This document shows positions 18,396 through 56,582 of a stretch of DNA of 64,000 nt, in pieces; positions within the stretch are counted from its first letter, which is position 1; every line of letters starts with the position of its first letter. Below the pieces are notes generated by a model that was given only the letters and a program-made list of their open reading frames with translations, had not been told where the DNA came from and made no database searches. Source of the stretch: Gimesia aquarii (GTDB taxonomy: Bacteria > Planctomycetota > Planctomycetia > Planctomycetales > Planctomycetaceae); NCBI RefSeq assembly GCF_007748175.1, contig NZ_CP037422.1, positions 6,903,952 through 6,967,951 of the forward strand, given 5' to 3'. The position numbers were made by a program, and so were the translations under genes.

Positions 18396-18485
18396 ATTTC
18401 AGTATTTATTGAACAGAGAGACATGACGACCCCTAGATGGTCAGAGATCATGCTATTCAATAAAGTATGAAATAGATCGAGTGTC

Positions 18486-18764
18486 CTACTCTCCCGGTGC
18501 GTCAAAGATAGAGAATTGAGTCATCGGAAGGGGCAGATCCGATTTTCCAAGTTCTTTCAGTTGATTTTCAATCATCTGGATACGGCTGGCGATTAGCTCG
18601 CGGCGGTGCATCCATTTCTTTTCCCAATTTCGAAACATGGTCTCAGGCGTTTCTGATTCTATTGTTGATGTCTGACGTGTCTTTTGAATTTTAACAAGTG
18701 ATCTTCCTAATCGAGCGTGGGCTTCCTTTACCATATGACTAGTGTGTTTGGGACACAAAGGCAT
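18486..18764 (-). CDS. Small conserved-looking protein of unknown function
   Basis: A 92-residue protein beginning MPLCPKHTSHMVKEAHARLG. A ribosome binding site (GGGAG, reading the minus strand at 18774-18779) precedes its ATG by about nine bases, which supports a real gene. The start has a C-x2-H pair and several basic residues. Residues 44-74 are a Trp/Arg-rich amphipathic helix (FRNWEKKWMHRRELIASRI), followed by IENQLKELG. There is no signal peptide. I cannot assign a function. It is convergent with the cysteine desulfurase gene. Confidence 0.6.
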   Translation of the reverse strand: MPLCPKHTSHMVKEAHARLGRSLVKIQKTRQTSTIESETPETMFRNWEKKWMHRRELIASRIQMIENQLKELGKSDLPLPMTQFSIFDAPGE

Positions 18765-19998
18765 GCGATGCTGCTCCCTAAGGTATGCGATTCGTTAAAG
18801 TGGTCTTCTTAGGATGAAATACATCTTGAAAAGTGAGTTAGATCAAAGCAGGTGTAATATGATCTTTTTAAAATAGTCCATCAACCGATCCGACATCATT
18901 TGTCAGTTTATTCAATCACCTGTTGTCATACATTCGCTTTTGGCAAGATATGGAAAATGAATCGTCAATGACAATCAGAGATCTTGAGAAGTAAGCGATG
19001 ACTTTTCGTGTGAAAATAGAGAGAGTTGTGAAACTCTAAGTTCATTTGATACGACCAGCATTCATCAGAACAATTGTTATTAATCCTCATAACCCACATC
19101 GCTGCAAAAGCAGGTATAAAAAGCATATGAAGGTTCAACTCTGGGAATGTCATGATTCCTTTAATGCAACGACTCTGGATCTGCTATCACGAATCCATCA
19201 TCAGAGTGATTCCGTATGATACTGAAACACGGCTCAATGCAAATCACATTCTCGTCCCGAACACCTGGTCCTGTTAGCATCAGCTATAGAACAACCAATT
19301 TAAACCATGGCGACTTTAAAGCGATGATACGAAGTCCAAATAGTCCTGGAGACACTAAAATAAACCTGGAAACAGCCTGAAATCTGGATCCCATCACAAA
19401 TGTTTTTTTACTCTCTGAGACGTATCAGTAATCTGTTTATGCAGCATGTTAAATAGGACCAATTAAAACGATTCTCCGAGTCTAGAAATCCAGGTAAGGT
19501 CCGGTTAGGCAAACAATAACGATCGTGCTGGCCGATTTAATGTTCATATCACTTTGCGTGTCACGATCCGACATTTCCTCTCTTATAACATGAGAGTCAC
19601 AACCGACACTTTGTTGAAGGACAGGATAATAGTCATGACTAGTCTTTACCTGTTTGCGATGACAGAGAGATCGGTTTATTTTCAAAAAAACAACTAAGAC
19701 ACCTAATTTACCCAAAGTATCATTCCGATATGAAAGAGGCGTGATTGCGCGGTTTCCCTCTGTGCTCTCATTGCATCATCTGAATCTGGAATGGTTTTGT
19801 TATGGAAAGATAAGCCACATCAGTTCGAAAAATCCTGTCAAAATGTACTGTTTTAATTGACATTTTTGGATTTGACAGGGACGAAAACTAATGTTTACGA
19901 GTGGTTTCAGCATCACTCGGGTACTTAAATCATAATGTAGCTCTAACCCAGTAAATCCCTTGGGAAGCTTTAAATACTAGTGAGAAAGGCTATTTGCC
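18765..19998. other. 1.2-kb gene-free stretch upstream of flagellin
   Basis: No convincing coding frame, RNA gene or repeat was found here. The short frames at 18965-19153 and 19482-19715 on the minus strand lack ribosome binding sites and family-like composition. The stretch is unusually long for this window. It must contain the flagellin promoter; a sigma-28-like box at 19704-19730 is the best candidate. A second possibility is TTGACA at 19858 or 19874 with a poor -10 element. Confidence 0.5.
19704..19731 (+). promoter_or_regulatory. Possible sigma-28-type promoter of flagellin
   Basis: TAATTTAC (19704-19711), a 12-base spacer and TCCGATAT (19724-19731) resemble the flagellar sigma-28 consensus TAAAGTTT-N11/12-GCCGATAA. 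It lies 268 bases before the flagellin start, which implies a long leader. The fliD gene carries a similar CCGATAT box, but a six-base match is common by chance. Confidence 0.3.
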
Positions 19999-21807
19999 AT
20001 GACACGAATTAATACTAACGTTGCCTCGATCAGAGGTTTACGTAGTTTAAATAAATCTACGAGTCTTTTAGACCAGTCTTTGACACGATTGTCAACTGGT
20101 TTGAAAATTAACTCTGGTAAAGACAATCCATCAGGTTTGATCGCCAGTGAAACACTGCGATCTCAGGTGTCTGCGATTGAGCAATCAATCAAAAACAGTA
20201 ACCGTGCCAGTAACGTGATCGCGACTGCTGACTCGGCTCTGGGTGAAGTCACCAACCTGTTGAACCAGGTTCGAGGTTTGGTTCAAGAAGGTTTGAACGA
20301 AGGTGCTCTGTCATCAGATGAAATTGCAGCGAATCAGCTTCAAATTGATACTGCTTTATCTGCAATTAACCGAATTTCAGCAAATACATCATTCGCCGGT
20401 GACAAACTGATCGACGGTAGTAAAGCATTCCGAACACAAGCCTCAGCAGTCGACTCTGCCAAACTCTCTGACTTCCAGGTCAACGAAGCCGTATTTGGAT
20501 CCAGCAGCACAATTACACTCGATGCCACAATCGTAACTGCTGCGACGCAAGCCAGCTTGGACTATAGTGCTGTTTCTGGTGGCCTGGCGTCTGCAACCAC
20601 TATTGAAGTAGGTGGAGCCAGTGGTAGTCAGGTGCTGTTCCTGGGTGCTTCCAGTTCGCTGGATAACGTTCGTGACGCTGTAAACGGTGTGACTGATATT
20701 ACCGGTGTGACGGCAACCAAAACCAATAAAGTAGCCAGTAACCTGTCATTCAACAATGCTGCGACAAACTCTGGCTTAACATTCACTGATGCCCGTACAT
20801 CAGACAGCATCTTGGGTGATACAGGACAAAACATCCGAGTTGAGTTTGCTGCTGCGAATGGTCCCAACAGTGTTGCAGGTATTACGTTCAATAATTCGAA
20901 CACCGATATTAATATCATTGTGCAAGTCGCTTCTGATGCTAACAATGCAATTACCTCAACAGCGACCTCAATCAAAGCTTTGTTGGATGGTAATGCCGAC
21001 ACCAATGCGTTGATCACAACTGCTCAGGAAGGTGATGGTACCGGAGTCGTCGAAGTTGAAGCTGCTGCTGCCTTATCTGGTGGTACTAGCGCTTACTTGA
21101 CTTTCAGTGCTTCTAACTATGGCTCTGACGAGTTTGTTGACGTTAACGTGTTGTCTGGAACCTTTGATACTGTCGACAATGTGACAGATGCCAATGCTCT
21201 CTCACGAGATATCGGCTCGGATATTGTCGCCCGAATTAACGGACAGGTCGCTCAAGGATCCGGTCTACAGGCCAACCTGCGATCTCAACAGCTTGATGCA
21301 TCGTTCTCCTTCACTGCTGCCGCTAACACAGCCTCAAATACCGCCAGTTTAACAATTACCGGTGGTGGTTCACTGTTCCAGATTGGACAGGATGTGTCAG
21401 CCGCCGGTCAGGTGGGCATTGGAATTGAAGCTGTGAATACAGCCCGATTGGGTGGTGTTTCCGGTAAATTGTTCGAACTGGGATCAGGTGGTGGTAAGAG
21501 TCTGCTGGATGTGGGACCTGCCGTTCCTGGTGCTGACCTGGTGAATATCATCGAAGAGGCAGTCAACCGTGTTTCCACCCTTCGTGGTCGATTGGGTGCG
21601 ATTCAGAAAAACGTGATTGAGACCAACGTCTCCTCGCTGGGGGTTGCTTTGGAAAACATTTCTGAAGCTCGAAGTCAGATCGTGGACACCGACTTTGCTG
21701 TCGAAACCGCGAATTTGACAAAAGCTCAGATTTTGAACCAGGCTGGTATTTCGGTTCTTTCGATTGCCAACCAGAACCCACAGCAGGTATTGAGTCTCTT
21801 AGGATAA
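19999..21807 (+). CDS. fliC: Flagellin
   Basis: The 602-residue filament subunit has both conserved flagellin ends. The D0/D1 N-terminus begins MTRINTNVASIRGLRSLNKS and runs through LDQSLTRLSTGLKINSGKDNPSGLIASE to about residue 145. The C-terminus runs from ~505 (INRVSTLRGRLGAIQKN-like, in EEAVNRVSTLRGRLGAIQ) to QILNQAGISVLSIANQNPQQVLSLLG. The middle, ~150-500, is a variable Ala/Ser/Thr/Asn/Asp-rich domain exposed on the filament surface and rich in potential O-glycosylation sites. It is followed by a strong terminator and then by a glycosyltransferase/methyltransferase cassette that ends at fliD-fliS. AAAGG precedes the ATG by about 11 bases. Confidence 0.97.
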   Translation: MTRINTNVASIRGLRSLNKSTSLLDQSLTRLSTGLKINSGKDNPSGLIASETLRSQVSAIEQSIKNSNRASNVIATADSALGEVTNLLNQVRGLVQEGLNEGALSSDEIAANQLQIDTALSAINRISANTSFAGDKLIDGSKAFRTQASAVDSAKLSDFQVNEAVFGSSSTITLDATIVTAATQASLDYSAVSGGLASATTIEVGGASGSQVLFLGASSSLDNVRDAVNGVTDITGVTATKTNKVASNLSFNNAATNSGLTFTDARTSDSILGDTGQNIRVEFAAANGPNSVAGITFNNSNTDINIIVQVASDANNAITSTATSIKALLDGNADTNALITTAQEGDGTGVVEVEAAAALSGGTSAYLTFSASNYGSDEFVDVNVLSGTFDTVDNVTDANALSRDIGSDIVARINGQVAQGSGLQANLRSQQLDASFSFTAAANTASNTASLTITGGGSLFQIGQDVSAAGQVGIGIEAVNTARLGGVSGKLFELGSGGGKSLLDVGPAVPGADLVNIIEEAVNRVSTLRGRLGAIQKNVIETNVSSLGVALENISEARSQIVDTDFAVETANLTKAQILNQAGISVLSIANQNPQQVLSLLG

Positions 21808-21857
21808 TAATCCTCTGAGAAGTCGATTACCGACTGAAAAATAAGTTCAGAAACGAA

Positions 21858-21895
21858 AACACTACTCATCATACGATGGGTAGTGTTTTTTGTTT
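21858..21895 (+). terminator. Intrinsic terminator after flagellin
   Basis: Arms AACACTACTCATC (21858-21870) and GATGGGTAGTGTT (21875-21887) pair with one G-U around the loop ATAC. A T-rich tail follows. It lies 50 bases after the flagellin stop and separates high-level flagellin transcription from the modification genes. Confidence 0.92.
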
Positions 21896-22113
21896 ATACC
21901 CACTGTTCATCCTATTTCCCCAAACAGCTTGCAGTAATAAACCTTGTTTGAACCTGATTTCAGACTGACTAAAGAAACGGCTTATCTCTCTCCGCGCCTC
22001 AGCCGATACAAACAGAATAACCGGAATAGTCTAGCTGGTGATCGAACCTGACCAGGTTTCAACAGCTCGCATTGCAAAAAATACAATTCGTACTGTGACT
22101 CAAAGAAGATTCT

Positions 22114-25100
22114 ATGCCTTCACCTCAGGAACTATTGGCAACGGCGGTTCAACAGCATCAAGCTGGAAATCTTCCACTTGCGGAAGAACTCTATCGTGAA
22201 GTACTCAAACACGATCCAAGCCAAGCGGATGCCTTGCACTTACTAGGCGTAGTCTATTTACATTTAAAACAGTACAAAAAATCAATTGATTTTATCACAC
22301 GTGCTATTTGCCAGAATGATGGTATTGGATCTTTCTTTTCAAATCGTGGAGCTGCCTGTAAAGGCTTAGGTCATTTTCAGGATGCAGTTTCCAATTACGA
22401 ACGCGCCATCGAGCTGGAGCCTGACAACCCGTCATTTCACTATAATCTCGGAATCACGCTCGCTTCATCCGGAAAAAAAGAAAAAGCGCGTGATGCGTAT
22501 CGCAAAGCAATTCAGCTGAAATCGAATTATGTTGATGCGTTAATTAATCTCGGCAATCTACTACTGGAAGAAGATGATGACCTTGAAGAAGCGATCACCC
22601 TTTGCAGGCAAGTTGTCAAGCTAGCACCTAATATTCATACTGCGCATTTTAATTTAGCAAATGCTTACGCAAAATCAGAAGCTCCTGAAGCTGCTGAAGA
22701 ATCTTATCAACAAGCTCTCAAGTTGGTTCCTAACCATATTGATACTTTGAAAAATTATTCCGTCTTTCTGTCAAGACAACAGAAATGCGAAGCTGCAATC
22801 AAGATTCTCAGAAAAGCGGCAGTGCTACAACCAGCTAATTGGGAGATTTTAAATAATCTGGGTATCCTTTATGCAGAGCAACAAGACTTTGCATTTGCCA
22901 TCAAATGTTTTCGAGCTGCATTAAAATTGGAACCTGAGAATTGTGATATTTTATTTCACCTAGGCAAGGCATTAGAAGAATCAAAAGAGATCCCCGAAGC
23001 AACGTTCACTTTTCGAGAAGTATTGCAAAAGCACCCTAATCACCCGGGTGCGGCATTTCACCTGGGATCTCTGGTGGCTTCACTGGGTGACCTGGAATAT
23101 GCTTATGAAATTTTCCAAAGTCTTTATCAGAGTGACCATACAAATACAGCGTCACTGTTTGGAATGGGGTCAATCCGATTAAAGCAAAAAAAAGTCGGTT
23201 CTGCTGTTGGCTATTTCGAATTGCTGGTGGAGTTGGAACCTGATCATTTACAGTCTCGTTTAAAACTGATCGAACTTTATTCATCACAACTGCGCAACGA
23301 AGAAGCTGAAGAACAGGTAGAGCAAGCGATCAAAGAACATCCCGACAGCGCCATCCTCTGGAACTATCGCGGGCACTTCGTTAATCAGAAGAGGAAGACT
23401 AAGAAAGCACTTAAATATTATTTACGTGCGCTGGAATTAGACGATACCTGTGTGTCCGCTTATCTAAATCTGGCAACCATCTATCAGGGGATGGGCCAGT
23501 TTGAAGACGCAAAATCGGCATTGAAGAAAGCATTTGAACTGCAGCCTCTGCCAGAATATCGCCTCGCAATTGCCAGCTTGCTGCCAGCGATTCCTGCATC
23601 CATGGATGCCATTCAGGAAGTACGACAATCGTTTATACAAAAAATCGAAGATATGCACGAAGATCGTGTGCTAATCGATGCTTCGATCAAACTGACGCCC
23701 GGCACCTTTTATCTGGCCTACCAGGGATATAATGACCGTCCGATTATCGAACGCATGGCAGAACTCTATCAGATCAAAAACACGCTCAGCTGGAATCCGC
23801 AAGAACCTACAATAGAGCGTGATGGACACATCCGCATCGGATTTATCTCCAGCCTGTTCTATAAACATACCATCGGATCGCTAATGAAAGGGATCATCAA
23901 GAATATTGATCGAGATAAGTTTCATGTGATCACGATTTCGCCAGCGAAATACAATGATGAAGTTGCTCAGGAGATCCGAAAAAATTCAGACGAATACGTT
24001 TTTCTGGGAATCGATCTACAACGTGCCAATCAGGTTCTGGAAAGCTTGGAACTAGATGTTCTGTTTTATGCTGACATTGGTATGGACCCGTTCATCTTCT
24101 CATTGGCGACCACTCGGCATGCGCCCGTACAATGTGTCACCTGGGGGCATCCGATTACGACCGGATTGAAGACCATTGATTACTTTATCTCCAGTAAACT
24201 AATCGAACCAGAAAACGCCGATGATCATTACTCAGAGCAACTGGTTCAACTTGATGCACTACCATCCTATTACTATCGTCCCACCTTACCTGCGAAGATC
24301 AAAAATCGGGCCGCGTTCGGACTTTCTGATGAGCAACATGTTTATGCCTGTCCCCAGACACTCTTTAAAATTCATCCAGAATTTGATCAGATTCTGGCAG
24401 GAATTCTAAGAAAAGATCCGAAAGCACGTATCGTTATGATTCGTGACCAAAATTCCAAATGGAAGGATTTACTAGTCGAACGATTTAATAAGTCTTTTTC
24501 TGATGTCATTGATCGAATTCACTGGTTACGAGGAATGTCGACGTATGACTTTCTGAACCTGATTTATATTTCCGATGTCATGCTGGATCCGATGCACTTC
24601 GGAGGCGGTAATACTTCCTATCAGTCGATGGCCATTGGAACGCCTGTTGTGACATTGCCGGCAAAATATATGCGTGGTCGCGGTATGCTGGCTGTCTATA
24701 AAAAGATGGGGATTATGGACTGCGTTGTTTCGTCTATCGACGAATACATTGATCTCGCCTGTCGCATTGGTGAAGATGAAAATTTCCGCGATCAACTCCG
24801 TCTGAAAATTCTTTCCAAAAGTCATCTTGTTTTTGAAGATATGAACACTGTTCGAGAACTGGAAGCATTTTTCGAATCTGCTTTTCACGAATTAGAAACA
24901 CAAAAAAAAACTCATCAACCTCATACGAACCTGATAAGCTCTGCCTCAAATAAGGATGAAAGCATGGATGCTTCATTAAACAACACACAAAGTCAAGATC
25001 ACTCCCATATCCTTAATTCTGCCATGCAGAATTATACATGTCCCGCTTGTGGATACCATATTGCGGTCCAGTTTTATGATGGTGGATTGCTCCCCTTGAC

Positions 25101-26319
25101 GACGTTGGCGTGGCCACAAACTTGCGAAGAAGCACAGACGATGGAACGTTTGCCACATGATTTTATGCGATGTGTGGATTGCGGACACATTTCGAATGCC
25201 GCGTTCGACTATGCGAAGGTTCCTTATTCAGATAAACCAAACTTAATGTTCAACAAAGGTGCAATCTGGTCTGAACACTTGCAAAAAGTCTGCGACCTGA
25301 TTTCAGAGCATCTTCCTGAAAATCCAACCGTTGTGGAAATCGGTTGTGGAGAAGGCCATCTATTGCGTTCACTGGCAAAGAAAATTCCCACAGGGAAATT
25401 CATTGGCTTTGATCCAAATGCAGAAATCGAGACCGAAGGCGCCTTGATTGATGCTCGGGCGATGTTGTTTGAACCGGGAACACATCTGGCAGAACTGCAG
25501 CCTGATCTGATCATCAGCCGACATGTGTTTGAACATTTGATGAATCCCCTGGGTTTTGCACAAGAAGTCGCATTTGCGGCGAACGTCGCTGAGTGTGCGA
25601 CCAAACTGTTTATTGAAGTCCCCTGTATTGACGGCGTACTGGCGGCAGGTCGCACGGTTGACTTCTTCTACGAACACAATTCTCATTTTACGACCCAATC
25701 GCTGGAAAGACTGTTAACCCGCTGTGCCACTAACACTGATTTGATTGAAACCAGCTACAACGGCGAAGTGATTTACGGACTGGCCAGCTTCCAGCCGCAA
25801 AAGCACCAGGTCGAATTAGCACGTCAGGCAGTGATGTTTCAGGAAAAGGCATTGCAGTCTGCGGCTCAACTGGCGCAGCAGTTTGATGATCTGGCGAGCA
25901 CCGGAAAACGCGTGGCAATCTGGGGTGGTACTGGAAAAGCGGCTGCGTTTATCAACCAGAACCAGCTTGATCAAAATCGCTTTCCGGTTGTAATCGACTC
26001 AGATCAGAATAAAGTCGGCACTTTTGTACCTGGAACGGGTCAGGAAATTCTCTTCCGAGATCATTTGATCCAAGAACCGGTCGAAGTCATTCTGATTGCC
26101 ACTCAATGGCGAGCCGCCGATATTGTACTTGAAATTGAACGCAATCAAATTCCCTTCAAGACAATCTTGATCGAATATCAGGGGCGATTGATCGATTATT
26201 TCAAAGATCAACACCCTTACCGTGGGGAACACGACCAATCTGAATCACAGGTCCCAAGGCCTCAGTTCCTTTCACAGAAAAACAGACAGCGTGATTCAAT
26301 CGACAGCGATATCATATAA
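22114..26319 (+). CDS. TPR / GT41 (OGT-like) glycosyltransferase / C-methyltransferase fusion
   Basis: One uninterrupted 1401-residue protein with three parts. Residues ~1-490 are about twelve TPRs (AEELYREVLKHDPSQADALH, YERAIELEPDNPSFHYNLG). Residues ~572-928 match the catalytic half of SPINDLY/OGT-type glycosyltransferases, with HIRIGFISS (572), WGHPITTG (His679) and LDPMHFGGGNTS (824-835). After a linker comes a C-methyltransferase set. CPACG (976-980) and CVDCG (1020-1024) form a zinc-binding module; VVEIGCGEGHLL (from 1073) is the SAM site; VAIWGGTGKAAAF (1267-1279) begins the C-terminal domain that accompanies TylC3/NovU-type sugar C-methyltransferases. The likely role is to attach a sugar to Ser/Thr of flagellin and methylate it or its precursor; the position directly after flagellin supports this, but it is inference. 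Confidence 0.87.
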   Translation: MPSPQELLATAVQQHQAGNLPLAEELYREVLKHDPSQADALHLLGVVYLHLKQYKKSIDFITRAICQNDGIGSFFSNRGAACKGLGHFQDAVSNYERAIELEPDNPSFHYNLGITLASSGKKEKARDAYRKAIQLKSNYVDALINLGNLLLEEDDDLEEAITLCRQVVKLAPNIHTAHFNLANAYAKSEAPEAAEESYQQALKLVPNHIDTLKNYSVFLSRQQKCEAAIKILRKAAVLQPANWEILNNLGILYAEQQDFAFAIKCFRAALKLEPENCDILFHLGKALEESKEIPEATFTFREVLQKHPNHPGAAFHLGSLVASLGDLEYAYEIFQSLYQSDHTNTASLFGMGSIRLKQKKVGSAVGYFELLVELEPDHLQSRLKLIELYSSQLRNEEAEEQVEQAIKEHPDSAILWNYRGHFVNQKRKTKKALKYYLRALELDDTCVSAYLNLATIYQGMGQFEDAKSALKKAFELQPLPEYRLAIASLLPAIPASMDAIQEVRQSFIQKIEDMHEDRVLIDASIKLTPGTFYLAYQGYNDRPIIERMAELYQIKNTLSWNPQEPTIERDGHIRIGFISSLFYKHTIGSLMKGIIKNIDRDKFHVITISPAKYNDEVAQEIRKNSDEYVFLGIDLQRANQVLESLELDVLFYADIGMDPFIFSLATTRHAPVQCVTWGHPITTGLKTIDYFISSKLIEPENADDHYSEQLVQLDALPSYYYRPTLPAKIKNRAAFGLSDEQHVYACPQTLFKIHPEFDQILAGILRKDPKARIVMIRDQNSKWKDLLVERFNKSFSDVIDRIHWLRGMSTYDFLNLIYISDVMLDPMHFGGGNTSYQSMAIGTPVVTLPAKYMRGRGMLAVYKKMGIMDCVVSSIDEYIDLACRIGEDENFRDQLRLKILSKSHLVFEDMNTVRELEAFFESAFHELETQKKTHQPHTNLISSASNKDESMDASLNNTQSQDHSHILNSAMQNYTCPACGYHIAVQFYDGGLLPLTTLAWPQTCEEAQTMERLPHDFMRCVDCGHISNAAFDYAKVPYSDKPNLMFNKGAIWSEHLQKVCDLISEHLPENPTVVEIGCGEGHLLRSLAKKIPTGKFIGFDPNAEIETEGALIDARAMLFEPGTHLAELQPDLIISRHVFEHLMNPLGFAQEVAFAANVAECATKLFIEVPCIDGVLAAGRTVDFFYEHNSHFTTQSLERLLTRCATNTDLIETSYNGEVIYGLASFQPQKHQVELARQAVMFQEKALQSAAQLAQQFDDLASTGKRVAIWGGTGKAAAFINQNQLDQNRFPVVIDSDQNKVGTFVPGTGQEILFRDHLIQEPVEVILIATQWRAADIVLEIERNQIPFKTILIEYQGRLIDYFKDQHPYRGEHDQSESQVPRPQFLSQKNRQRDSIDSDII

Positions 26320-26388
26320 ACGTAGACGGAATCAGCGTTCGATATATGAATGCTTCCACAAAGACCACGATTTCAGACAGGATAAAAT

Positions 26389-27090
26389 ATGATCATCTTT
26401 AATTTCGGAATTCCCAATTCAGGAACCGACTGGTCACAGGAAGTCTTTAAGAAGATCTGGGAAAAACAAAACTATACCTTCCAGGTCGAAGAGCCAGAGT
26501 CATTGGAGGAACTGAATCATCTGATTGGAACGATGAATGTAAATGAGCGGATGATTATCCGATTTCATTTGCTGACCGAAGAGGCTATTGAAGCCGCTCA
26601 ACAGGATGCCGTACGCCCTTTTTATCATTATCGTGACCCTCGTGACGTGGTTTGCTCCGAAATGGAAAACAGCGACATCAATTTCTCAACCGCCGTCGAC
26701 CAGACAGTGAGTGCTTATCAGGAAATACACCATGCACTTTGTCTACCGGGAATCATGGTCATTCCTTATGAACACATCGTAGAAAATGCTGAAGCTTTGA
26801 TTTTTCAGATGGCGACCAAATTAGGAGTTTTACTAAAACTGAACGTTGCCTCAGAAATTGCTGCCGAAATTCGTGAATTAATGGCACAACCCGAGTGCGC
26901 GGTTGCTTCCACAGCCACCGACTCGCTCCCGGCACAAGCATTACGACTTGATGAAGAGCACACGTCAGATTCGCCCCTTGTTCAACCTTTGATGATTGGC
27001 AAGTGGCGCGACCAGTTGTCTCAGTCTGAAAGATCAATGGTCAACCGTTTTTTTAAACCTTTAGTCGATCAATTTGGATACGAACAATAA
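26389..27090 (+). CDS. Sulfotransferase-like protein
   Basis: A 233-residue cytoplasmic protein with the PAPS-dependent sulfotransferase signatures. PNSGTDW (9-15) is the 5'-phosphosulfate loop, YRDPRDVVCS (81-90) the 3'-phosphate motif, IPYEHI (125-130) is typical of the family, and GKWRDQLSQSE (204-214) corresponds to the late GxWR motif. It could sulfate a sugar or small acceptor. It lies 69 bases after the glycosyltransferase fusion and 34 bases before the PhyH-like gene on the same strand, inside the fliC-fliD interval, which suggests a filament glycan as target. That target is inferred. Confidence 0.8.
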   Translation: MIIFNFGIPNSGTDWSQEVFKKIWEKQNYTFQVEEPESLEELNHLIGTMNVNERMIIRFHLLTEEAIEAAQQDAVRPFYHYRDPRDVVCSEMENSDINFSTAVDQTVSAYQEIHHALCLPGIMVIPYEHIVENAEALIFQMATKLGVLLKLNVASEIAAEIRELMAQPECAVASTATDSLPAQALRLDEEHTSDSPLVQPLMIGKWRDQLSQSERSMVNRFFKPLVDQFGYEQ

Positions 27091-27124
27091 ACACACGGCT
27101 CATCAAAATGACCAGGGACGGTGA

Positions 27125-27979
27125 ATGATGCTTCCTATAAACCAATTATGTACCTTGAACTGTCAGACAGAAGATGTTGAACTTTCAAATGAGCACCTGG
27201 ATCAATATGCAGAAGAAGGGGTTCTGCTGGTCAAAAATCTGTTTGATCCTGCGGACTTCCTATCGATTCGAAACGACCTTTCAGGGCGTCTCACTCTCCT
27301 GGAACGACACAACGGTTGTGAAGTCTTTGAAAACGAAAATGAGATCAAACAAATCAGCGATCGATTGATCAGGCTGGAAGAGCAGGTTCCCGGTACACAG
27401 AGCATTCTTTATGATGCAATGAATTTTGCTCCATCCCTGCATGCGATGGGAGCACATTCGAAATTAATGGCGATTCTCGAAAAACTGCTCTCGCCTGAAA
27501 TTTCCATTCATGATCGCTATATCATTCTCATGAGTATGCCTCAGGGAGAATGGCATCTTGCGTCGTGGCATCAGGACTGGTATTACAATGAAGGTCCCTA
27601 TTCAACAATTACGCTTTATGCACCTCTACAGAAAACAGATCAACAGAATGGTAGTCTGACGTTCGCATTAGGTGAGCATCAAAAACCACCGGTGCCACAC
27701 GACGAACATAATCATGGAATAGTCACAAAATGGCATTCACTTCCTCCCGAAGAGGTGAACCAATACGACCGCGTTGTACCAACGGCGCTGGATGTGGGAG
27801 ATGTGCTGTTATTTCACAGTCTGACACCGCACACTCCTTCAAAAAATCAATCCGATCACGTCCGATTCGTATTGAATTTGCGGTATCGGGATCTAAGAGA
27901 TCCTCAATTCTTGAACGAAGGCTGGCGCATTCAAGAAATTACACGTGCCAGAAACGCAATGCAGAGATCGGCATCCTGA
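27125..27979 (+). CDS. Phytanoyl-CoA dioxygenase (PhyH)-like oxygenase
   Basis: The 284-residue protein fits the PhyH branch of iron/2-oxoglutarate-dependent oxygenases. The iron triad is visible as His149-x-Asp151 in SWHQDW and His236 in LTPHTPS, and Arg247 in HVRFVLNLRY is placed to bind 2-oxoglutarate. AGGGACGGTGA just before the ATG gives a usable ribosome binding site. PhyH-family enzymes in glycan or natural-product clusters hydroxylate or desaturate small molecules. With a sulfotransferase before it and a TylF methyltransferase after it, it may modify the flagellar sugar or its lipid or amino acid substituent. The substrate is unknown. Confidence 0.82.
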   Translation: MMLPINQLCTLNCQTEDVELSNEHLDQYAEEGVLLVKNLFDPADFLSIRNDLSGRLTLLERHNGCEVFENENEIKQISDRLIRLEEQVPGTQSILYDAMNFAPSLHAMGAHSKLMAILEKLLSPEISIHDRYIILMSMPQGEWHLASWHQDWYYNEGPYSTITLYAPLQKTDQQNGSLTFALGEHQKPPVPHDEHNHGIVTKWHSLPPEEVNQYDRVVPTALDVGDVLLFHSLTPHTPSKNQSDHVRFVLNLRYRDLRDPQFLNEGWRIQEITRARNAMQRSAS

Positions 27980-28023
27980 AACCAAATTGATTCACGAAAC
28001 ACTTCAGAAAAAGCTAATTTGAC

Positions 28024-28806
28024 ATGGCAGAAAAAAAAGGGTTACTACGAGGCAACGTGGGAGAATCGCAGAATCAGTCTGCGAGCGACTTGAATGCATT
28101 GAATGCGGTCGAAGAATATTGGGAATCGAGTGTCGGCACAAACTTAAACAAATTAGATGCATTTACCAAATACGTTTCCCGGCAATCGATTACTAAATTA
28201 CTGGCTCGTTATGAAATTTTCAAACAACAGTTAGATGTTAACGGATCAGTTGTCGAACTCGGCGTGCACCGGGGCGCCAGCTTAATGGCCTGGGCGCAAT
28301 TCAGTGCGATTTTAGAGCCTGTTAATTATCTACGAAAAATTATCGGCTTTGATACTTTCGAAGGCTTTCCCTCATTGAGCGAAAAAGACACAACGGGAAC
28401 CAGCGAACATCTTGAAGTAGGCGGTTTCAAGTCAGAAGAAAACGCAATGGAAGACATCGAACGAGCGACACAGGTTTATGATTCCACCCGTTATCTGAAT
28501 CACATTCCGAAAGTGGAATTAGTGAAAGGGGATATTGGTATCACGCTGCCAGAATATCTCGAAAAAAATCAGCATCTGGTCGTTTCGTTGTTACATCTCG
28601 ATGCAGATTTATACGAACCAACAAAAATCGCATTGGAGCAGTTGATTCCACGAATGCCCAAAGGGGCAATCATCGCCTTTGATGAGTTAAATATGAATTT
28701 ATTCCCAGGAGAAACTCTCGCAGCAATGGAAACGATCGGGCTACCAAAGTTACGACTGAAACGATTTCCCTTTGCAACTTCACTTTCCTATGCTGTGATC
28801 GAATAG
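28024..28806 (+). CDS. TylF/MycF-type O-methyltransferase
   Basis: A 260-residue SAM-dependent methyltransferase of the macrocin O-methyltransferase (TylF) family. VVELGVHRGAS (76-86) binds SAM, FDTFEGFP (109-116) and HLDADLYEPT (191-200) carry the metal- and acceptor-binding acidic residues, and FDELN (219-223) follows. Relatives methylate sugar hydroxyls in macrolides, polysaccharides and flagellar glycans. It closes the four-gene modification block between flagellin and fliD, 44 bases after the PhyH gene. Methylation of a filament sugar hydroxyl is a reasonable inference, which would complement the C-methyltransferase part of the upstream fusion. Confidence 0.85.
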   Translation: MAEKKGLLRGNVGESQNQSASDLNALNAVEEYWESSVGTNLNKLDAFTKYVSRQSITKLLARYEIFKQQLDVNGSVVELGVHRGASLMAWAQFSAILEPVNYLRKIIGFDTFEGFPSLSEKDTTGTSEHLEVGGFKSEENAMEDIERATQVYDSTRYLNHIPKVELVKGDIGITLPEYLEKNQHLVVSLLHLDADLYEPTKIALEQLIPRMPKGAIIAFDELNMNLFPGETLAAMETIGLPKLRLKRFPFATSLSYAVIE

Positions 28807-28887
28807 CATCATGGCCCGAAAATTCGTCATAATTACTAAATTCTATTAAAAACACGCTTTACAGAGCAGATCTTGGAACACTCGCTT

Positions 28888-28915
28888 CAAGCAGCAACCT
28901 TTCACTAACCGATAT
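28888..28915 (+). promoter_or_regulatory. Possible sigma-28-type promoter of fliD
   Basis: ACCGATAT at 28908-28915 resembles the sigma-28 -10 element GCCGATAA. The upstream half (CAAGCAGC, 28888-28895) is a poor match to TAAAGTTT. The fliD start is 135 bases downstream. The flagellin gene has a comparable TCCGATAT box, which is the main reason to mention this one. Confidence 0.25.
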
Positions 28916-29050
28916 AAATTTAGATGCAGTAGTCCGTCGTGCGCAGTCAGTTATTAAGGACTAGGCATCAAAAGATGATTTCGATTCAGAATTTGGCCAT
29001 TCAATGTAAGAGGAGCAGTCGCTCAATTACCCTAAGACAGGCTTGGTAAG

Positions 29051-31786
29051 ATGTCAGGCATTAGTTCCGGTGTCGGTTTGGCAACCGGGTTGAACATTAC
29101 GGAAATTGTGGACGCCCTGATCGGTGTCCAGCGAAATGCGCTTGTCCGTCTGGCGGATCGTGCCTCAGGATTTGAGGCAGTCGAAGGGGGTATCAAAACC
29201 CTCGAAGCTAACCTGCTTTCGCTTAATTCCACAGTTCAAACACTGGGCCTGGAAAGCACTTTTGAGACGCTGCAGGCCACAAGCTCCGACACGAGTCAAT
29301 TCAGCGTTGCCGCCAACAGCACCGCCACCGCAGCCACCTATCAATTACAGGGCTTGCGTACCTCATCGAACCATCAAGTCATTTCAAAAGGATTCGCTGA
29401 TTCCGATACAACACAAATTGGAACAGCTACCACCATTACCCTTTCAAATGGAGGTAAGCTGGATCAGCCCAAACTTTTGGAAGAATTGAATAATGGTTTA
29501 GGCGTTCAACGTGGGAGTATTCGCATTACCGACCGTGATGGTCAGACGGAAGTCATTGACCTGACCAAGACAATTGATATCGATGATGTGATCGACACCA
29601 TCAATAAGTCAGCCACAACGATTGTCGCCAGTATTGAAGACGATCACCTCGTTATTACCGATACCGGCTCAGGTGTGGGAACTCTTTCTGTCACGGAAGT
29701 GGGCGGCGGTCAAACAGCAGCTGATTTGGGAATTTTGAAGTCAGTGGCTGGCTCGTCGTTTAATGGTGACTCCGTCTATCGAGTGACTACTGATTTTAAC
29801 TTGTCACAAATTAACGATGGAAATGGGATTACGACAGTCGCAGGTTCCGATGACTTTCAAATCACGGCCGCGGATGCATCAACCATCGACGTTAATTTAG
29901 ATACCGCGCAGACGATTGGAGACGTCGTCGATTTAATCAATAATGATGTTTCTAATGCAGGCAAAGTGACCGCCTCTATTGACAGTAATGGGAAATTAAG
30001 CCTGGTAGATAATACCGTCGGCGGTTCTACCTTTGCAGTCACTGCCTTGAATAGTTCATTAGCAGCACGCGAGTTGGGAATTCAGCAGTCAGCCCCCGGT
30101 GGAACCATTCTGGGCACTATTTCCGGAGGTTTGAATTCTGTATTACTCAGAAGCCTGAATGGTGGAGTTTCGTCAACGGGAACCGTACTAAACGCAGGTC
30201 AGATTTCCATTACTGATGGTGCAGCAGGAAATGCAACCATCGATTTTTCCTCAGCAGAAACGCTAGATGATGTAATCGATCTGATCAATGCGAATGGCGC
30301 AATTCAAATTGAAGCCAGCTTGAACGAAACAAAAACAGGGATTCAAATCAAAGATCTCTCGGCTCCTTCGGGAACATCTATTGAAATACAAGATGTCACC
30401 GGGAATTTAGCCAGCTTCCTCAAAATCGATACAACACTTGCTGAAACAAAACATACCGTTGATTCCGGTTCATTGGATTTGCGTTATGTTAATGAAGAGA
30501 CATCCTTATCGACTTATGGAAAAAATGGTACGGCGGTCTCAACGGGTAGCATTCGCATTACAGACCGTGATGGAGTCAGCTTTAACGTCGACTTGTCAGA
30601 CGCAACAACCACTAAAACAATCGGGGATGTGCTCACAAAAATTAATGATGCTGCCACCACAGCCAGTGCGCAAATCAATGCCCGTCTGAATGATGCTGGA
30701 GATGGTTTTATTATCGAAAGTACAGGTGGAAGCTCATTCGATGTCAAAGTCGAGGAAGTCTCCAGCGGAACCGTGGCAGCGGACTTGGGAATTTTAGGCT
30801 CGGGAACAACCAGCGTCGAAAGTAATCAGACGACAGTGATCACGGTTGAGGCAACAGATACGCTTGATGACATTGCAGAAAAAATTAATGCCACAGGCGT
30901 TGCAAGTGCATCGATTATTGATGATGGTACGGCATTTAATTCTTCTCGACTCTCTTTGACTTCTGTACGAAGCGGTGGTGCAGGGGAAATGATTCTGGAA
31001 AGTTCATTCGATTTTGGATTTACTACTTCTGTTGATGCTGAGGACGCATTAATTCGTATCGGTAGTAACCCGCAAACCTCATTTTTATTGACCTCGTCCA
31101 CCAACAGTTTTGACAATGCCATTACAGGACTGGAAATCGACTTACTTTCAACAGGTACTTCACCAGCCACAATTTCTGTTGCCCGTGATACCGCAGGCAT
31201 TAAATCTTCGATCAATAATTTTATCACTGCATATAATGCCTTCGTCGACGCCAAAGATTCACTCACCAGTTTTAACTCTGAAACGAATGAACGAGGTGTG
31301 CTCAATGGAAATGGTGTTGTATTGACAACGGTTTCCCGTTTGGAAGGATTACTGACAAAAAAGCTTTCTGTCAGTAACAACTCGATTAAGAGCATGTCTG
31401 AATTAGGAGTTCAGTTTAGTAGTAATGGGAAATTACAGCTCAACGAATCTTTTTTTGATCAGGTATTGATCGACGATCCCAGTGCCGTTACGGAGTTTTT
31501 CCAGCAGGAAAATACGGGATTTGCTGTTGTCATGGATGAAGTGATTACCGCGATGACAGATCCGTTTACGGGAACATTCAAGGCCCAAACGGACTCACTA
31601 CAGGCATCCGCACTGGCCTTGAACACTCGTGTCGATGAACTGAATTCAATTTTGGAAGACCGTCGCGAACGACTGATTCGCCAATTTACGCTACAGGAAA
31701 CGATCGTCAATCAATTGAACTCACAACAGTCTGCATTAGAACGACTGCAACTTCTGAGTACAAACAATTCCAACAACAAGAAATAA
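29051..31786 (+). CDS. fliD: Flagellar filament cap protein FliD (HAP2)
   Basis: The 911-residue protein has the FliD N-terminus (MSGISSGVGLATGLNITEIV, then DALIGVQRNALVRLADRASG) and the helical C-terminus (TRVDELNSILEDRRERLIRQ, TLQETIVNQLNSQQSALERL). FliD caps the growing filament and folds arriving flagellin. Enteric FliD is roughly half this length. The extra bulk is an internal array of flagellin-IN-like repeats. The motif G-S-I-R-I-T-D-R-D-G occurs near residues 155 and 498, each followed by a T-I-x-D-V-x-x-x-I-N stretch and later an AADLGIL block. It precedes fliS by 49 bases on the same strand. Confidence 0.93.
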   Translation: MSGISSGVGLATGLNITEIVDALIGVQRNALVRLADRASGFEAVEGGIKTLEANLLSLNSTVQTLGLESTFETLQATSSDTSQFSVAANSTATAATYQLQGLRTSSNHQVISKGFADSDTTQIGTATTITLSNGGKLDQPKLLEELNNGLGVQRGSIRITDRDGQTEVIDLTKTIDIDDVIDTINKSATTIVASIEDDHLVITDTGSGVGTLSVTEVGGGQTAADLGILKSVAGSSFNGDSVYRVTTDFNLSQINDGNGITTVAGSDDFQITAADASTIDVNLDTAQTIGDVVDLINNDVSNAGKVTASIDSNGKLSLVDNTVGGSTFAVTALNSSLAARELGIQQSAPGGTILGTISGGLNSVLLRSLNGGVSSTGTVLNAGQISITDGAAGNATIDFSSAETLDDVIDLINANGAIQIEASLNETKTGIQIKDLSAPSGTSIEIQDVTGNLASFLKIDTTLAETKHTVDSGSLDLRYVNEETSLSTYGKNGTAVSTGSIRITDRDGVSFNVDLSDATTTKTIGDVLTKINDAATTASAQINARLNDAGDGFIIESTGGSSFDVKVEEVSSGTVAADLGILGSGTTSVESNQTTVITVEATDTLDDIAEKINATGVASASIIDDGTAFNSSRLSLTSVRSGGAGEMILESSFDFGFTTSVDAEDALIRIGSNPQTSFLLTSSTNSFDNAITGLEIDLLSTGTSPATISVARDTAGIKSSINNFITAYNAFVDAKDSLTSFNSETNERGVLNGNGVVLTTVSRLEGLLTKKLSVSNNSIKSMSELGVQFSSNGKLQLNESFFDQVLIDDPSAVTEFFQQENTGFAVVMDEVITAMTDPFTGTFKAQTDSLQASALALNTRVDELNSILEDRRERLIRQFTLQETIVNQLNSQQSALERLQLLSTNNSNNKK

Positions 31787-31835
31787 TTTCTACTCAATCG
31801 AGTCAATCAAACTATATAGAGGGGCCATCAAGGAG

Positions 31836-32309
31836 ATGAACGGAAGCGATTATATTGAAAACCAGGTTCTAACAGCACAACCACATCAGTTGCATCTCAT
31901 GGTGGTTGATGGCGCATTACGTTTTGCCCGAAAAGCAGCACAGGCAGCAGAAGCGCAAAATTTTGAGCAGACTCACTTTGCGTTAGACAAAAGCCGCGAA
32001 CTCGTTGCCGAACTGATAGGCGGATTGAATCCTGAGCAGCAACCGGAAATGATTGAACAACTGAAAGCACTGTTTGTGTTTGTTTATGAAAACCTAAACC
32101 ATGCAGATGTCAAACAGGATCCGAAATACATTCATGATGCCATAAAGGTTCTGGAAATCCATCGAGAGTCCTGGTGTGAGCTTATCGAACTCCTGCAGAC
32201 TGAAACCGTCGAGGAAAAAAAAACGATCCACGCTCCGGAATCACTGAAAGCCCCTCATCATGTTGAGCAACCGGAGCAAGTACACCAAAGCCGCTCCTGG
32301 TTGACTTGA
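31836..32309 (+). CDS. fliS: Flagellin export chaperone FliS
   Basis: The 157-residue helical protein opens with MNGSDYIENQVLTAQPHQLH, then LMVVDGALRFARKA, the classic FliS pattern of a Y-x-x-x-x-V-x-T-A-x-P-x-x-L segment. FliS binds the C-terminus of flagellin in the cytoplasm and prevents premature polymerisation. The C-terminal ~40 residues (KAPHHVEQPEQVHQSRSWLT) form a polar tail longer than usual. AAGGAG directly abuts the ATG and a second purine run (GAGGGG) lies 12 bases upstream; the latter is the more plausible ribosome binding site. It follows fliD, as in most flagellar operons. Confidence 0.92.
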   Translation: MNGSDYIENQVLTAQPHQLHLMVVDGALRFARKAAQAAEAQNFEQTHFALDKSRELVAELIGGLNPEQQPEMIEQLKALFVFVYENLNHADVKQDPKYIHDAIKVLEIHRESWCELIELLQTETVEEKKTIHAPESLKAPHHVEQPEQVHQSRSWLT

Positions 32310-32331
32310 TAACAAATCATCGTGCTGCGCA

Positions 32332-32368
32332 TAAAAAACACCCTCATCATGTGAAATGATAAGGGTGT
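32332..32368 (-). terminator. Intrinsic terminator of the pilin-like genes (minus strand)
   Basis: Arms AGGGTGT/ACACCCT (32362-32368 and 32338-32344) are perfect, with an inner CATCAT...ATGAT extension. Read on the minus strand the hairpin is followed by TTTTTTAT, so it ends the pilin-like transcription unit. It lies just beyond the fliS stop and may also slow readthrough from that side. Confidence 0.75.
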
Positions 32369-32449
32369 CTGAGGTGGAGACCTCCGCCTCGATGCAAGCC
32401 TGCTTCCTATGCGGGAAACGTCATCTATTTCGCAGTCATAATCAATCGC

Positions 32450-32770
32450 TTAGTTGTTGTAACCTCGTCCTTCGCGAACAGGGCCACGGTCACAAACGAT
32501 GTCGTTTTGACTGTCACAGAAATCAACCCGATCATTGAAATCACTTCCAAACGTATAGCCCTTGTGGCCTGAGGCACCGGAAACATAGAAGCTCTGGTTG
32601 ACCCGACCAAATGCACTACCCACATCTTCCAGTTCCTGGTTAATGTTGTGAGCGACTTCACTCAGCCCTACTATCATCGCCAATACGGCAATTGTTGAAA
32701 CGAGCACTAGCTCGGAAGAGATAATAAATCCGGCCTCGTCGTTCATCAGTTGAATCAACACGGTTTTCAT
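32450..32770 (-). CDS. Small pilin-like membrane protein (paralogue 1)
   Basis: A 106-residue protein with one hydrophobic helix near the N-terminus: MKTVLIQLMNDEAGFIISSE followed by LVLVSTIAVLAMIVGLSEV. The short polar leader, then DEAG, a Glu six residues after the glycine, and a hydrophobic stretch recall Flp/TadE-type prepilins. Canonical Flp prepilins have Glu at +5, so the fit is imperfect. The soluble part (HNINQELEDVGSAFGRVNQS, then SGASGHKGYTFGSDF) has a Cys pair near the end (FCDSQNDIVC). GGAGA precedes the ATG by eight bases. It follows a close paralogue 139 bases upstream, so the pair is a tandem duplication. Such proteins sometimes carry misleading enzyme names in databases. Confidence 0.78.
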   Translation of the reverse strand: MKTVLIQLMNDEAGFIISSELVLVSTIAVLAMIVGLSEVAHNINQELEDVGSAFGRVNQSFYVSGASGHKGYTFGSDFNDRVDFCDSQNDIVCDRGPVREGRGYNN

Positions 32771-32909
32771 GGTGATAGTCTCCAGTTCATAAAGTGGGTA
32801 TTGGGTTTGTTTTGGGTTTTAAAATCTGCAGGGTTGGTGAAGCCCTGCTGACAGTCTTCAGGAAAGAAAGGACGTTTCGGAGGTTGTCATTCGGTTTTTC
32901 AGGGAACGA

Positions 32910-33188
32910 TTATTCAACGTCCCACTGACCAGCACAGAAGTCAGTCGAATCGTAAAAGCTGCTTGATTCGGTGCACGCTTTGTGACCGTGTGCATTTTTG
33001 AGTTTGAAAGACTGATCGATGCAGGAGAAGGCACTGCCCACATCTTCGAGTTCATTGTTGACGTTTAAAGCGACTTCAGACAGTCCGACGATCATTGCCA
33101 GAACGGCGATACTGGAAATCAAAACAAGCTCGGCAGAAACAATGAATCCGGCTTCGTCGTTCATCAGTTGAGTGAAGATGTTTTTCAT
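32910..33188 (-). CDS. Small pilin-like membrane protein (paralogue 2)
   Basis: A 92-residue relative of the downstream protein: MKNIFTQLMNDEAGFIVSAE, then LVLISSIAVLAMIVGLSEVA, then NVNNELEDVGSAFSCIDQS. The first ~55 residues are nearly identical between the two, while the tails diverge. This copy keeps GHKACTES and FCAGQW cysteines. GGGAGA lies about nine bases before the ATG. The single membrane helix after DEAG suggests processing by a prepilin peptidase and assembly into, or anchoring at, a Tad/Flp-like surface structure, but no peptidase or Tad gene is in the window. It is the first gene of the two-gene minus-strand unit. Confidence 0.78.
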   Translation of the reverse strand: MKNIFTQLMNDEAGFIVSAELVLISSIAVLAMIVGLSEVALNVNNELEDVGSAFSCIDQSFKLKNAHGHKACTESSSFYDSTDFCAGQWDVE

Positions 33189-33678
33189 GGTGTGGGTCTC
33201 CCTGGTGTTAAATATGAATGCTTTGCATCGAGTTTTGTGTTTTCAAGTTGATACAGGGATGTAAAGCAAGCTGAATACCAAAAGGGGCTCCGCGCTAAAA
33301 ACTTTTTACAATCTGTTCAAAAACAGAACTGTAAGTCGTTAAGAGATGGTCAGATAGAAAAAACACATTGCGGACATTTTTTTCGGCACATGACAAACCG
33401 AGACCAAAACAGAATGAGGCGAATTCACACCGCTTAGAACGGTGAAAGAGGGTTTAAACACGTAAACCATTTATAGACAAGCAGTTATTGCCATGTAGCC
33501 TTAAAACAGCATGATGCGAAAAATCAACATGAGAGAAAGGTAACTGAAATGTCTCTGAAAATCAGGGGGGAGGTGTGCCGAAGTACAAAATGCTCTTCAC
33601 ATACAAGCCATTTCCTGTTATGAACCGCAACAGATTTTAAGGGGGTGTTATTATGGGATGAAAGGGAAAGGAATCCCT
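33189..33678. other. Intergenic region upstream of pilin-like and lipoprotein genes
   Basis: About 490 bases without a supported gene between divergent units. It should contain the promoter of the pilin-like pair and that of the small lipoprotein. A five-base inverted repeat, CACCG...CGGTG, sits near 33429. A 24-codon frame starting at 33549 has AAAGG ahead of it but no recognisable product, so I did not call it. Confidence 0.45.
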
Positions 33679-33876
33679 ATGCGTAAACAGTTACACCTTA
33701 CAATCTTCTGTTCCATGCTCTGTGTGCTGCCTATGACGGGTTGTCAAATGGCAGGCGGTGATGGGCCAATCACCAGCACACTCGGTTTTCGTGATGTTCC
33801 CAAACAGAGCGAACCTCCCGTTCAGTCTGAAGAAGAGATCGAAAGTGAAATGGCTGAGTCGATTACGGACGAATAG
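33679..33876 (+). CDS. Small lipoprotein
   Basis: The 65-residue product from the ATG at 33679 is MRKQLHLTIFCSMLCVLPM followed by TGC. It is a lipoprotein signal with Cys21 or close as the acylated residue. AAAGG ends eight bases before this ATG; an in-frame ATG at 33658 lacks such a site. The mature part is short, acidic and Pro/Glu-rich (QSEPPVQSEEEIESEMAES). It probably sits on a membrane facing the periplasm. No family was recognised. Confidence 0.65.
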   Translation: MRKQLHLTIFCSMLCVLPMTGCQMAGGDGPITSTLGFRDVPKQSEPPVQSEEEIESEMAESITDE

Positions 33877-34111
33877 ATCAGTAATCTATTGGGGATAAAC
33901 GGCTTCAAAACAAAAAATTTCAAAGGGATCCCTCCATCTACTAAAATTGAGCAAACTGACAGATTCAGTTAGTCGATGACGAAAAGGGATTCGTTCCTAA
34001 CAGTGAAAAGAGAATCGTCACTAAGCATCGTTGATACAGTATCAATTCTAATGTGACAGCAAAGTAAATTAAGAGTGATTTGACTTAGACAAGGATGGAA
34101 TAAGTCGACAA

Positions 34112-56255: not shown

Positions 56256-56360
56256 TTTGTCTTGGCTCCCTCTCCAGAGAGGGAGCTCTATCTGAAATCT
56301 GATTTATCCCCTCAGAGCCCAGATATCTCTTTATCTGGTGAAAGTATTAAGGAGACCATT

Positions 56361-56519
56361 GTGGAAAAGTTTCGCAAAATACAGTCAGTGCTTTTAAGCA
56401 TCGTTCTACTGTTACCGATTTCAGGGTGTTCTGGAAACTCAAAAGGACCTTCTGATGATAGTGAAACCCCTATAGAAGTAGGAGATGAAGAGTCCCTCAC
56501 TCTTCCACCAAATGGGTGA
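56361..56519 (+). CDS. Small lipoprotein paired with DUF1559 protein
   Basis: The GTG at 56361 follows AAGGAG (56349-56354) by six bases and gives a 52-residue lipoprotein, with signal KFRKIQSVLLSIVLLLPISGC and an acidic tail (SKGPSDDSETPIEVGDEESL). A longer frame from 56262 has no site and adds non-signal residues. Every DUF1559 gene in this window is followed by a small lipoprotein, so this one is likely to be a real partner. A terminator follows the stop codon. Confidence 0.75.
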   Translation: MEKFRKIQSVLLSIVLLLPISGCSGNSKGPSDDSETPIEVGDEESLTLPPNG

Positions 56520-56582
56520 TCAGCAAGCAACATTACAGAATGGACTTGCTCTCTCTTCTGTTTGTTTTAGAATCTTCAACTA

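Follow-up and report, generated by a model that had tools for sequence, protein, structure and literature searches.

Two described systems come closest to the locus presented here. In Caulobacter crescentus, FlmG joins an N-terminal TPR region to a GT-B glycosyltransferase and modifies flagellins in the cytosol, and its genome holds no Maf and, like that of Gimesia, a nonulosonic-acid pathway (accessible part of PMC7591256). The likeness of FlmG to our protein is one of described features and domain layout. The same part of that paper calls substrate choice by cytoplasmic O-glycosylation systems 'poorly understood'. In enterobacteria, fifteen island types were distinguished across 194 strains, with inserts beside fliC and a GT41/SPINDLY-type transferase with a fused methyltransferase (De Maayer and Cowan 2016, PMC4875605, in the part available). 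A literature search for planctomycetes, flagellin and glycosylation or glycosyltransferase gave nothing on planctomycete flagellin glycans among the matches listed, as judged by title or abstract opening.

Here, we describe a locus of Gimesia aquarii within a stretch of 64,000 nucleotides (the window; contig NZ_CP037422.1, positions 6,903,952 to 6,967,951), in which four modification genes lie between fliC and fliD. Gene order, domain homology and the predicted fold of the glycosyltransferase (GT) describe a cassette whose four enzymes most likely make an unusual methylated sugar and attach it to the filament. We consider it probable that this is a flagellin O-glycosylation cassette exchanged as an acceptor and a donor block. 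What is new here is that close species differ by block replacement within the cassette.

Gene order and transcription signals

The ORF check returned seven genes on the + strand (fliC, fusion, sulfotransferase-like, PhyH-like, TylF-like, fliD and fliS; positions 19999-32309), with Flagellin_N/C, FliD and FliS recognized by Pfam at the flagellar genes. This order and single orientation are as the original prediction had put them, and the coordinates are listed in Table 1. With 92 bits to Flagellin_N, fliC stands alone as a strong flagellin in this genome; a second, weaker match (52 bits) lies in a 754-aa frame elsewhere, which is taken to be a putative FlgL. The four modification genes are separated by only 69, 34 and 44 bases. 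Their G+C content is 0.41-0.485, compared with 0.37-0.51 across the window, and Pfam found no mobile genes among the seven ORFs, so that the cassette carries neither the deviant G+C nor the mobile-gene hallmarks of a recent horizontal transfer of a whole island. Sugar-synthesis genes are likewise absent from the seven ORFs; a nonulosonate operon lies elsewhere in the genome.

Table 1. Coordinates of genes, signals and sequence regions at the fliC-fliD locus (positions within the window).
Feature	Position	Strand	Basis or remark
fliC	19999..21807	+	ORF and Pfam
Hypervariable flagellin centre (~residues 240-400)	20716..21198	+	Differs by exchange among close species; putative acceptor region
Intrinsic terminator 3' of fliC	21850..21895	+	z -5.83, 0/200 shuffles
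Promoter-like CCGATA motif upstream of cassette	21990..22012	+	Resembles those upstream of fliC (19725) and fliD (28909)
1401-aa fusion	22114..26319	+	TPRs ~1-520, GT41 521-905, sugar C-methyltransferase-like ~963-1390
Recurrent recombination breakpoint	24361..24426	+	Fusion residues ~750-771, near start of GT C-lobe
Sulfotransferase-like protein	26389..27090	+	P-loop Lys replaced by Asn
PhyH-like Fe(II)/2-oxoglutarate oxygenase	27125..27979	+	Pfam, iron residues
TylF-type sugar O-methyltransferase	28024..28806	+	Nearest solved relative CalS11
Promoter-like motif of fliD, TCAAGC...CTAACCGATA	28887..28918	+	In 16/16 genus stretches
fliD, filament cap	29051..31786	+	ORF and Pfam
fliS, flagellin export chaperone	31836..32309	+	ORF and Pfam

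The stem of the fliC terminator recurs in 14/14 genus stretches read, with a short T-run in 5 of those. CCGATA was found upstream of the fusion in 14/14 genus stretches and upstream of fliC in 12/12, while fliD carries its own version of the motif in all 16. The CCGATA-containing motif, defined post hoc after inspection of the sequence, gave 10 matches where 2.63 were expected, and none of 100 shuffles reached 10; in the window alone, CAAG-N-CCGATA is not above chance (one present in 47/100 shuffles). The motif resembles a flagellar-type promoter, without any sigma factor assigned. With a terminator behind fliC and a promoter-like motif of their own, the four modification genes look like a transcription unit separate from fliC. 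A search of 18000-34000 for RNA elements gave no hit in Rfam, even at E values as high as 1, and the conserved fliC leader folds no better than shuffled sequences (60/200 as well).

Domain content of the modification enzymes

Within the fusion, Pfam recognized TPRs, Glyco_transf_41 (85 bits, cut-off 25), Methyltransf_23 and Methyltransf_14. The GT domain scored highest against TtOGT (111 bits), human OGT (106-110) and SPY (99), lower against HMW1C (84) and NGT (83), and lowest against XcOGT (67-68). Its predicted model (pLDDT 90.2) superposes on the OGT/SPY group, with TM scores by query of 0.78-0.84 to TtOGT, SPY and XcOGT and 0.73-0.77 to animal OGT; the domain is thus predicted to have an OGT/SPINDLY-like GT-B fold, with residues 742-745 as the first strand of the C-lobe in the model. 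If OGT numbering is taken to mark the active-site positions, the Lys matching Lys842 is present in 23/23 aligned sequences and the His matching His498 in 22/23.

The closest solved relatives of the fused methyltransferase are D-mycarose 3-C-methyltransferase (51 bits) and TcaB9 (42 bits). It carries a Cys cluster, a SAM domain, a YEH motif and Methyltransf_14, features of NDP-sugar 3-C-methyltransferases of which we take the Cys cluster and the YEH motif to be the functional hallmarks. The TylF-like protein (44.9 bits, cut-off 23) leads to CalS11, a TDP-rhamnose 3'-O-methyltransferase, with 129 bits. The sugar-methyltransferase homology of both proteins supports the methylated glycan that had been proposed. 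A phage origin of the fusion was rejected, as it matched none of 50,697 phage records. Two matches to the methyltransferase were found in viral_contigs, one of 46% identity adjoining a sugar epimerase/dehydratase-like gene, the other of 36% over 68 residues.

The sulfotransferase-like protein is the weakest of the cassette calls. Sulfotransfer_1 was matched with 30.2 bits (cut-off 22), but no solved structure matched at E 0.1, and the predicted model is poor (pLDDT 40.8). The P-loop Lys is Asn in 14/15 aligned copies, and also in the window's own copy, which stands outside those 15; at the 3'-phosphate motif, the aligned copies show no conserved Ser. The names of these motifs (P-loop Lys/Arg, 3'-phosphate Ser) were applied to the alignment on our assumption that they hold for this family. 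APS kinase was found in 5/5 genomes searched. Judged by these sequence features, the possible sulfation of the glycan is doubtful. A literature search on sulfotransferases beside flagellin gave no mention of a sulfotransferase among the matches listed.

For the PhyH-like protein (53 bits, cut-off 22), weak relatives were found among 2-oxoglutarate hydroxylases. Residues H149, D151, H231 and H236 are invariant in 5 aligned rows, and an HxD...H motif, presumably the iron triad of an Fe(II)/2-oxoglutarate PhyH oxygenase, is visible in 13 rows of a second alignment. Of the hydroxylation proposed originally, the iron site of a candidate oxygenase is borne out by this conservation.

Sugar donor

Away from the cassette lies a nonulosonate operon of the legionaminate type. 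Its NeuC, NeuB, NeuD and LegC exceed their curated cut-offs, whereas LegB narrowly misses its own (460 of 475) and a cytidylyltransferase resembling PseF falls short (152 of 206); the NeuB is called N-acetylneuraminate synthase by its model. The NeuB family was found in 9/9 genomes searched. As an O-antigen-ligase-like and a flippase-like gene are present as well, the nonulosonate may be destined for the envelope and not for flagellin. Maf-like PF01973 is absent from 11/12 genomes, including that of the window, in a search whose positive control genomes were all archaeal. The two methyltransferases would suggest a TDP-deoxysugar as donor, and the analogy with FlmG a CMP-nonulosonate.

Conservation within and beyond the genus

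FliD was found in 16/17 genus genomes, all but the 74% complete G036, and is 76-98% identical to that of the window. Since cassette genes adjoin fliD in all 16, the arrangement is not due to chance. The fusion adjoins fliC in the 14/16 genus stretches whose contig reaches far enough, and the GT domain occurs in 15/17 genus genomes with one copy each at E 1e-5; in G038 the contig ends there. PhyH and TylF are present in 14/16 and are both absent from G027 and G037.

Outside the genus, 90/153 genomes have FliD, and 38 of these 90 stretches were retrieved, many of which end at contig edges. In a genome of another genus (G081), separate genes for GT41 and methyltransferase adjoin fliD-fliS, and fliC is on a different contig. 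A TPR-GT2-methyltransferase fusion adjoins fliD in G115, and two TPR genes, one of them GT9-like, adjoin it on the opposite strand in G086. In L065, L078, L093 and L097, fliC adjoins fliD and no cassette is present; L071 also contains FliD, and 15 further stretches held no glycosyltransferase by Pfam in one nearby ORF each. Three full-length flagellins beside fliD without a cassette contain 22.9, 27.1 and 27.8% Ser and Thr in their middle, so that the Ser/Thr-rich middle domain cited in the original prediction (22.6%, compared with 18.9% in the ends) does not discriminate.

Further fusions of GT41 and methyltransferase occur in G073, G074 and G071, where a contig end truncates the methyltransferase part. 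The two are adjacent in G061 (cut), G081, G095 and G097, the last two with a homologue of the sulfotransferase-like protein (SulT) on the 3' side. No flagellar genes were found in stretches of 7-19 kb around the pairs of G061, G071, G073, G074, G095 and G097, and in the one-contig genome G095, fliC, fliD and GT lie far apart. The neighbourhood search thus showed the predicted linkage to flagellar genes throughout the genus, 16/16 beside fliD, but not in the stretches read from these six other genomes, and their pairs are the main counter-evidence to a role in flagellin modification. A further pair lies on a contig that appears phage-like (L110, with genes for a T7-type RNA polymerase and DNA polymerase A). 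On the three plasmids examined, two from Azospirillum and one from Cereibacter, GT41 homologues have glycosyltransferase, polysaccharide or unrelated genes as neighbours. The GT-MT-SulT order of G095 and G097 and the lack of PhyH and TylF in G027 and G037 agree on a putative core of GT, methyltransferase (MT) and SulT with an optional PhyH-TylF pair.

Block exchange between close species

Across the window, the median identity of G000 and G026 in 128 half-kb bins is 96%; 13 bins fall below 85%, of which 6 lie within fliC and the fusion and 7 elsewhere. Identity drops to 73-84% in the fliC centre and to 66-82% in the TPRs and the N-terminal half of the GT, and returns to 97% at 24501. Within this block, pS is 0.5-0.83, compared with 0.03-0.22 in the rest of the fusion, and amino-acid differences jump together with the synonymous ones. 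As the synonymous differences are raised too, divergent alleles must have been brought in by replacement.

Two further pairs show complementary patterns. Between G027 and G037, the fliC centre, TPRs and GT N-half differ, and the C-half, methyltransferase and SulT are alike. G037 and G029 agree in the former set and differ in the latter, with PhyH-TylF only in G029. A simple deletion of PhyH-TylF in G027 and G037 was rejected, since the fusion C-half and SulT are replaced too; in the FliD and fusion trees, both are nested inside cassette-bearing genomes. The assemblies of G000, G026, G027 and G029 are single contigs, and that of G037 comprises ~50. Break estimates fall at residues 753 (752-756), 759 (756-762) and 769 (768-771; 750 in the global fit), with weaker breaks at 811 and 812. 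We read the exchange as one of two blocks whose common boundary is the lobe junction of the GT.

In GT-B enzymes, the N-lobe mostly faces the acceptor and the C-lobe binds the nucleotide sugar. On this basis, flagellin centre, TPRs and GT N-lobe would form an acceptor block, and GT C-lobe, methyltransferase and SulT, with or without PhyH-TylF, a donor block. That the glycosyltransferase evolves by lobe swapping, its flagellin-facing half moving with the flagellin surface and its sugar-facing half with the tailoring genes, is a possibility to which we give a little less than an even chance. If true, it would generate combinatorial flagellar surface types in planctomycetes. A literature search on mosaic flagellin glycosyltransferases gave nothing relevant among the matches listed.

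Co-variation of flagellin and TPRs

In partial Mantel comparisons over 13 genomes, controlled for FliD, SulT and C-lobe+MT, the flagellin centre co-varied with the TPRs (r=0.63, 0/2000 permutations; on ranks 0.58, 1/2000; without G026 0.71, 0/2000). The GT N-half co-varied with the centre as well (0.45, 13/2000). No correlation was seen between flagellin centre and C-lobe+MT (-0.04) or flagellin C-end and TPRs (-0.16). In a further partial Mantel comparison, SulT followed C-lobe+MT (0.56, 0/2000), and TPRs and C-lobe+MT did not correlate (0.00). The two-block picture did not predict the tendency of the flagellin centre to follow SulT (0.31, 53/2000, with FliD alone as control). When the set was thinned to 10 genomes with one of a close quartet, the correlation of centre and TPRs was 0.35 (57/2000) versus 0.25 for C-lobe+MT, and with 8 genomes, one per close clade, 0.49 (27/2000) versus 0.09. 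Of the nine close pairs compared, two from the closest quartet (G028/G029 and G028/G037) combine diverged flagellin centres with nearly identical TPRs, and in G027/G028 of that quartet centre and TPRs are loosely uncoupled. Because of the thinned controls, the SulT co-variation and these uncoupled pairs, the co-variation is suggestive of an acceptor block and nothing stronger.

Alternative explanations

The cassette might act on a small molecule or on a protein other than flagellin, its place in the fliC-fliD gap being incidental. The GT41-MT modules of six other genomes, which have no flagellar genes in the stretches read, the pair on the phage-like contig and the company of the plasmid homologues would point that way. 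We regard this as unlikely, because the position is kept in every FliD-bearing genus genome, a promoter-like motif is common to cassette, fliC and fliD, and the TPRs co-vary with the flagellin centre, not its ends. These points, together with the OGT/SPINDLY-like fold, support flagellin as the target. In its general form the flagellin-glycan idea is probably correct, and it has clear precedents. A GT that acts instead as a GT41 N-glycosyltransferase, with Asn-linked glucosylation as in HMW1C/NGT, seems improbable. HMW1C and NGT do outscore XcOGT, and NCBIfam NGTferase was matched with 71.6 bits, though its cut-off is 1000; the scores of TtOGT, human OGT and SPY are higher still, the best fold matches of the predicted model are OGT and SPY, and TPRs are present. 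Moreover, the flagellin centre of the window has 3 N-x-S/T sequons against 6.0 expected (congeners 3-8 against 5.0-7.0). Profile scores and sequon counts thus make O-linkage the better reading of the GT.

The block structure itself calls for more caution. General recombination and fast surface evolution, with breaks that track local DNA conservation, could have produced the blocks, and the acceptor and donor assignment would then be over-read; we hold this to be a serious possibility, albeit one we would rather bet against. In a comparison of fifteen 15-codon bins, conservation is highest at codons 745-759, where 67% of the nucleotides are invariant, which would favour crossovers; more than half of the low-identity G000/G026 bins lie outside fliC and the fusion, breaks also occur near residues 811-812, and the thinned co-variation is weak. 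However, the joint jump of synonymous and amino-acid differences indicates replaced alleles, and G037 and G029 combine the same acceptor block with different donor blocks. The exchange of acceptor and donor blocks remains our preferred reading.

Proposed mechanism

We infer substrate, sugar and chemistry of the cassette as follows. If the fusion works like FlmG, its TPR superhelix would bind unexported flagellin in the cytosol, and the GT41 domain would place one deoxy- or nonulosonic-type sugar on Ser/Thr of the surface-exposed flagellin centre. As their families suggest, the fused methyltransferase and the sulfotransferase-like, PhyH and TylF proteins may tailor the sugar or its nucleotide form, with PhyH and TylF acting as an optional pair. 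The decorated flagellin would then be exported and capped by FliD. The close-species pairs, some divergent chiefly in the acceptor half and others chiefly in the donor half, look like natural chimeras, and G027 and G037, lacking PhyH and TylF, offer a further natural comparison.

Comparison with known systems

Unlike the Gimesia fusion, FlmG has 596 residues, no fused methyltransferase is described for it in the part of PMC7591256 consulted, and its donor there is pseudaminate, whereas the Gimesia operon is of the legionaminate type. The enterobacterial islands are variable and carry sugar-synthesis genes and mobile elements (available part of PMC4875605), whereas the Gimesia cassette keeps four genes across the genus, without sugar-synthesis genes. 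The terms 'TylF', 'phytanoyl' and 'sulfotransferase' are absent from the main text of PMC4875605 according to a term search of the part at hand. In its predicted fold and in the Lys at the position of OGT Lys842, the GT resembles TtOGT, XcOGT and SPINDLY, but identity in the structural alignments is only 16-24%, and here the GT is fused to a methyltransferase in a flagellar setting. D-mycarose 3-C-methyltransferase, TcaB9 and CalS11 belong to antibiotic sugar pathways. These are the closest solved relatives of the fused domain and of TylF, respectively, yet the Gimesia homologues sit beside flagellin genes.

Other regions of the window

Within the fliC leader, a 30-base stretch showed no differences across the 13 genus genomes with fliC upstream sequence, and folding of the leader was no better than that of shuffled sequences. 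Behind fliS lie two small pilin-like ORFs that are similar to each other (Table); for the one of the two that was tested, no Pfam match was found. A further stretch of low identity to the close relative G026 (0.72-0.84 per half-kb bin) carries genes that we take to be DUF1559-family-like.

Table. Coordinates of the features discussed
Feature	Position	Strand	Remark
Invariant fliC leader stretch	window 19793-19822		
Two pilin-like ORFs	window 32450-32770 and 32910-33188	-	3' of fliS
Low-identity stretch	window 54501-57500		
GT41 gene	L110:9212-11233		
Methyltransferase gene	L110:11254-12528		
TPR-GT2-methyltransferase fusion	L091:5884-9411		G115

Related transferases in other neighbourhoods

On contig L110, from a Vampirovibrionales metagenome assembly, a GT41 gene adjoins a methyltransferase of the type found in the cassette fusion. 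The same contig encodes a T7-type RNA polymerase and a DNA polymerase A, and it is probably phage. The GT score of a metagenome record titled Bordetella parapertussis (L115) falls with the alphaproteobacterial ones among the matches listed, and this title may be wrong.

In the wider family, 10 of the 15 other genomes with a TylF homologue have it at most about 5 kb from a divergent GT41 gene (L176-L185), and a Pfam scan of one such cluster (L178) placed a DegT aminotransferase between the two. Locus L222, in the window's own genome, holds a nonulosonate operon of the legionaminate type, which includes a KpsF/CBS-like and nucleotidyltransferase fusion together with an O-antigen-ligase-like gene and a MurJ-type gene.

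In genome G115, the TPR-GT2-methyltransferase fusion immediately adjoins fliD. The slot beside fliD is shared with the window cassette, whereas the transferase family differs, being GT2 in G115 and GT41 in the window.
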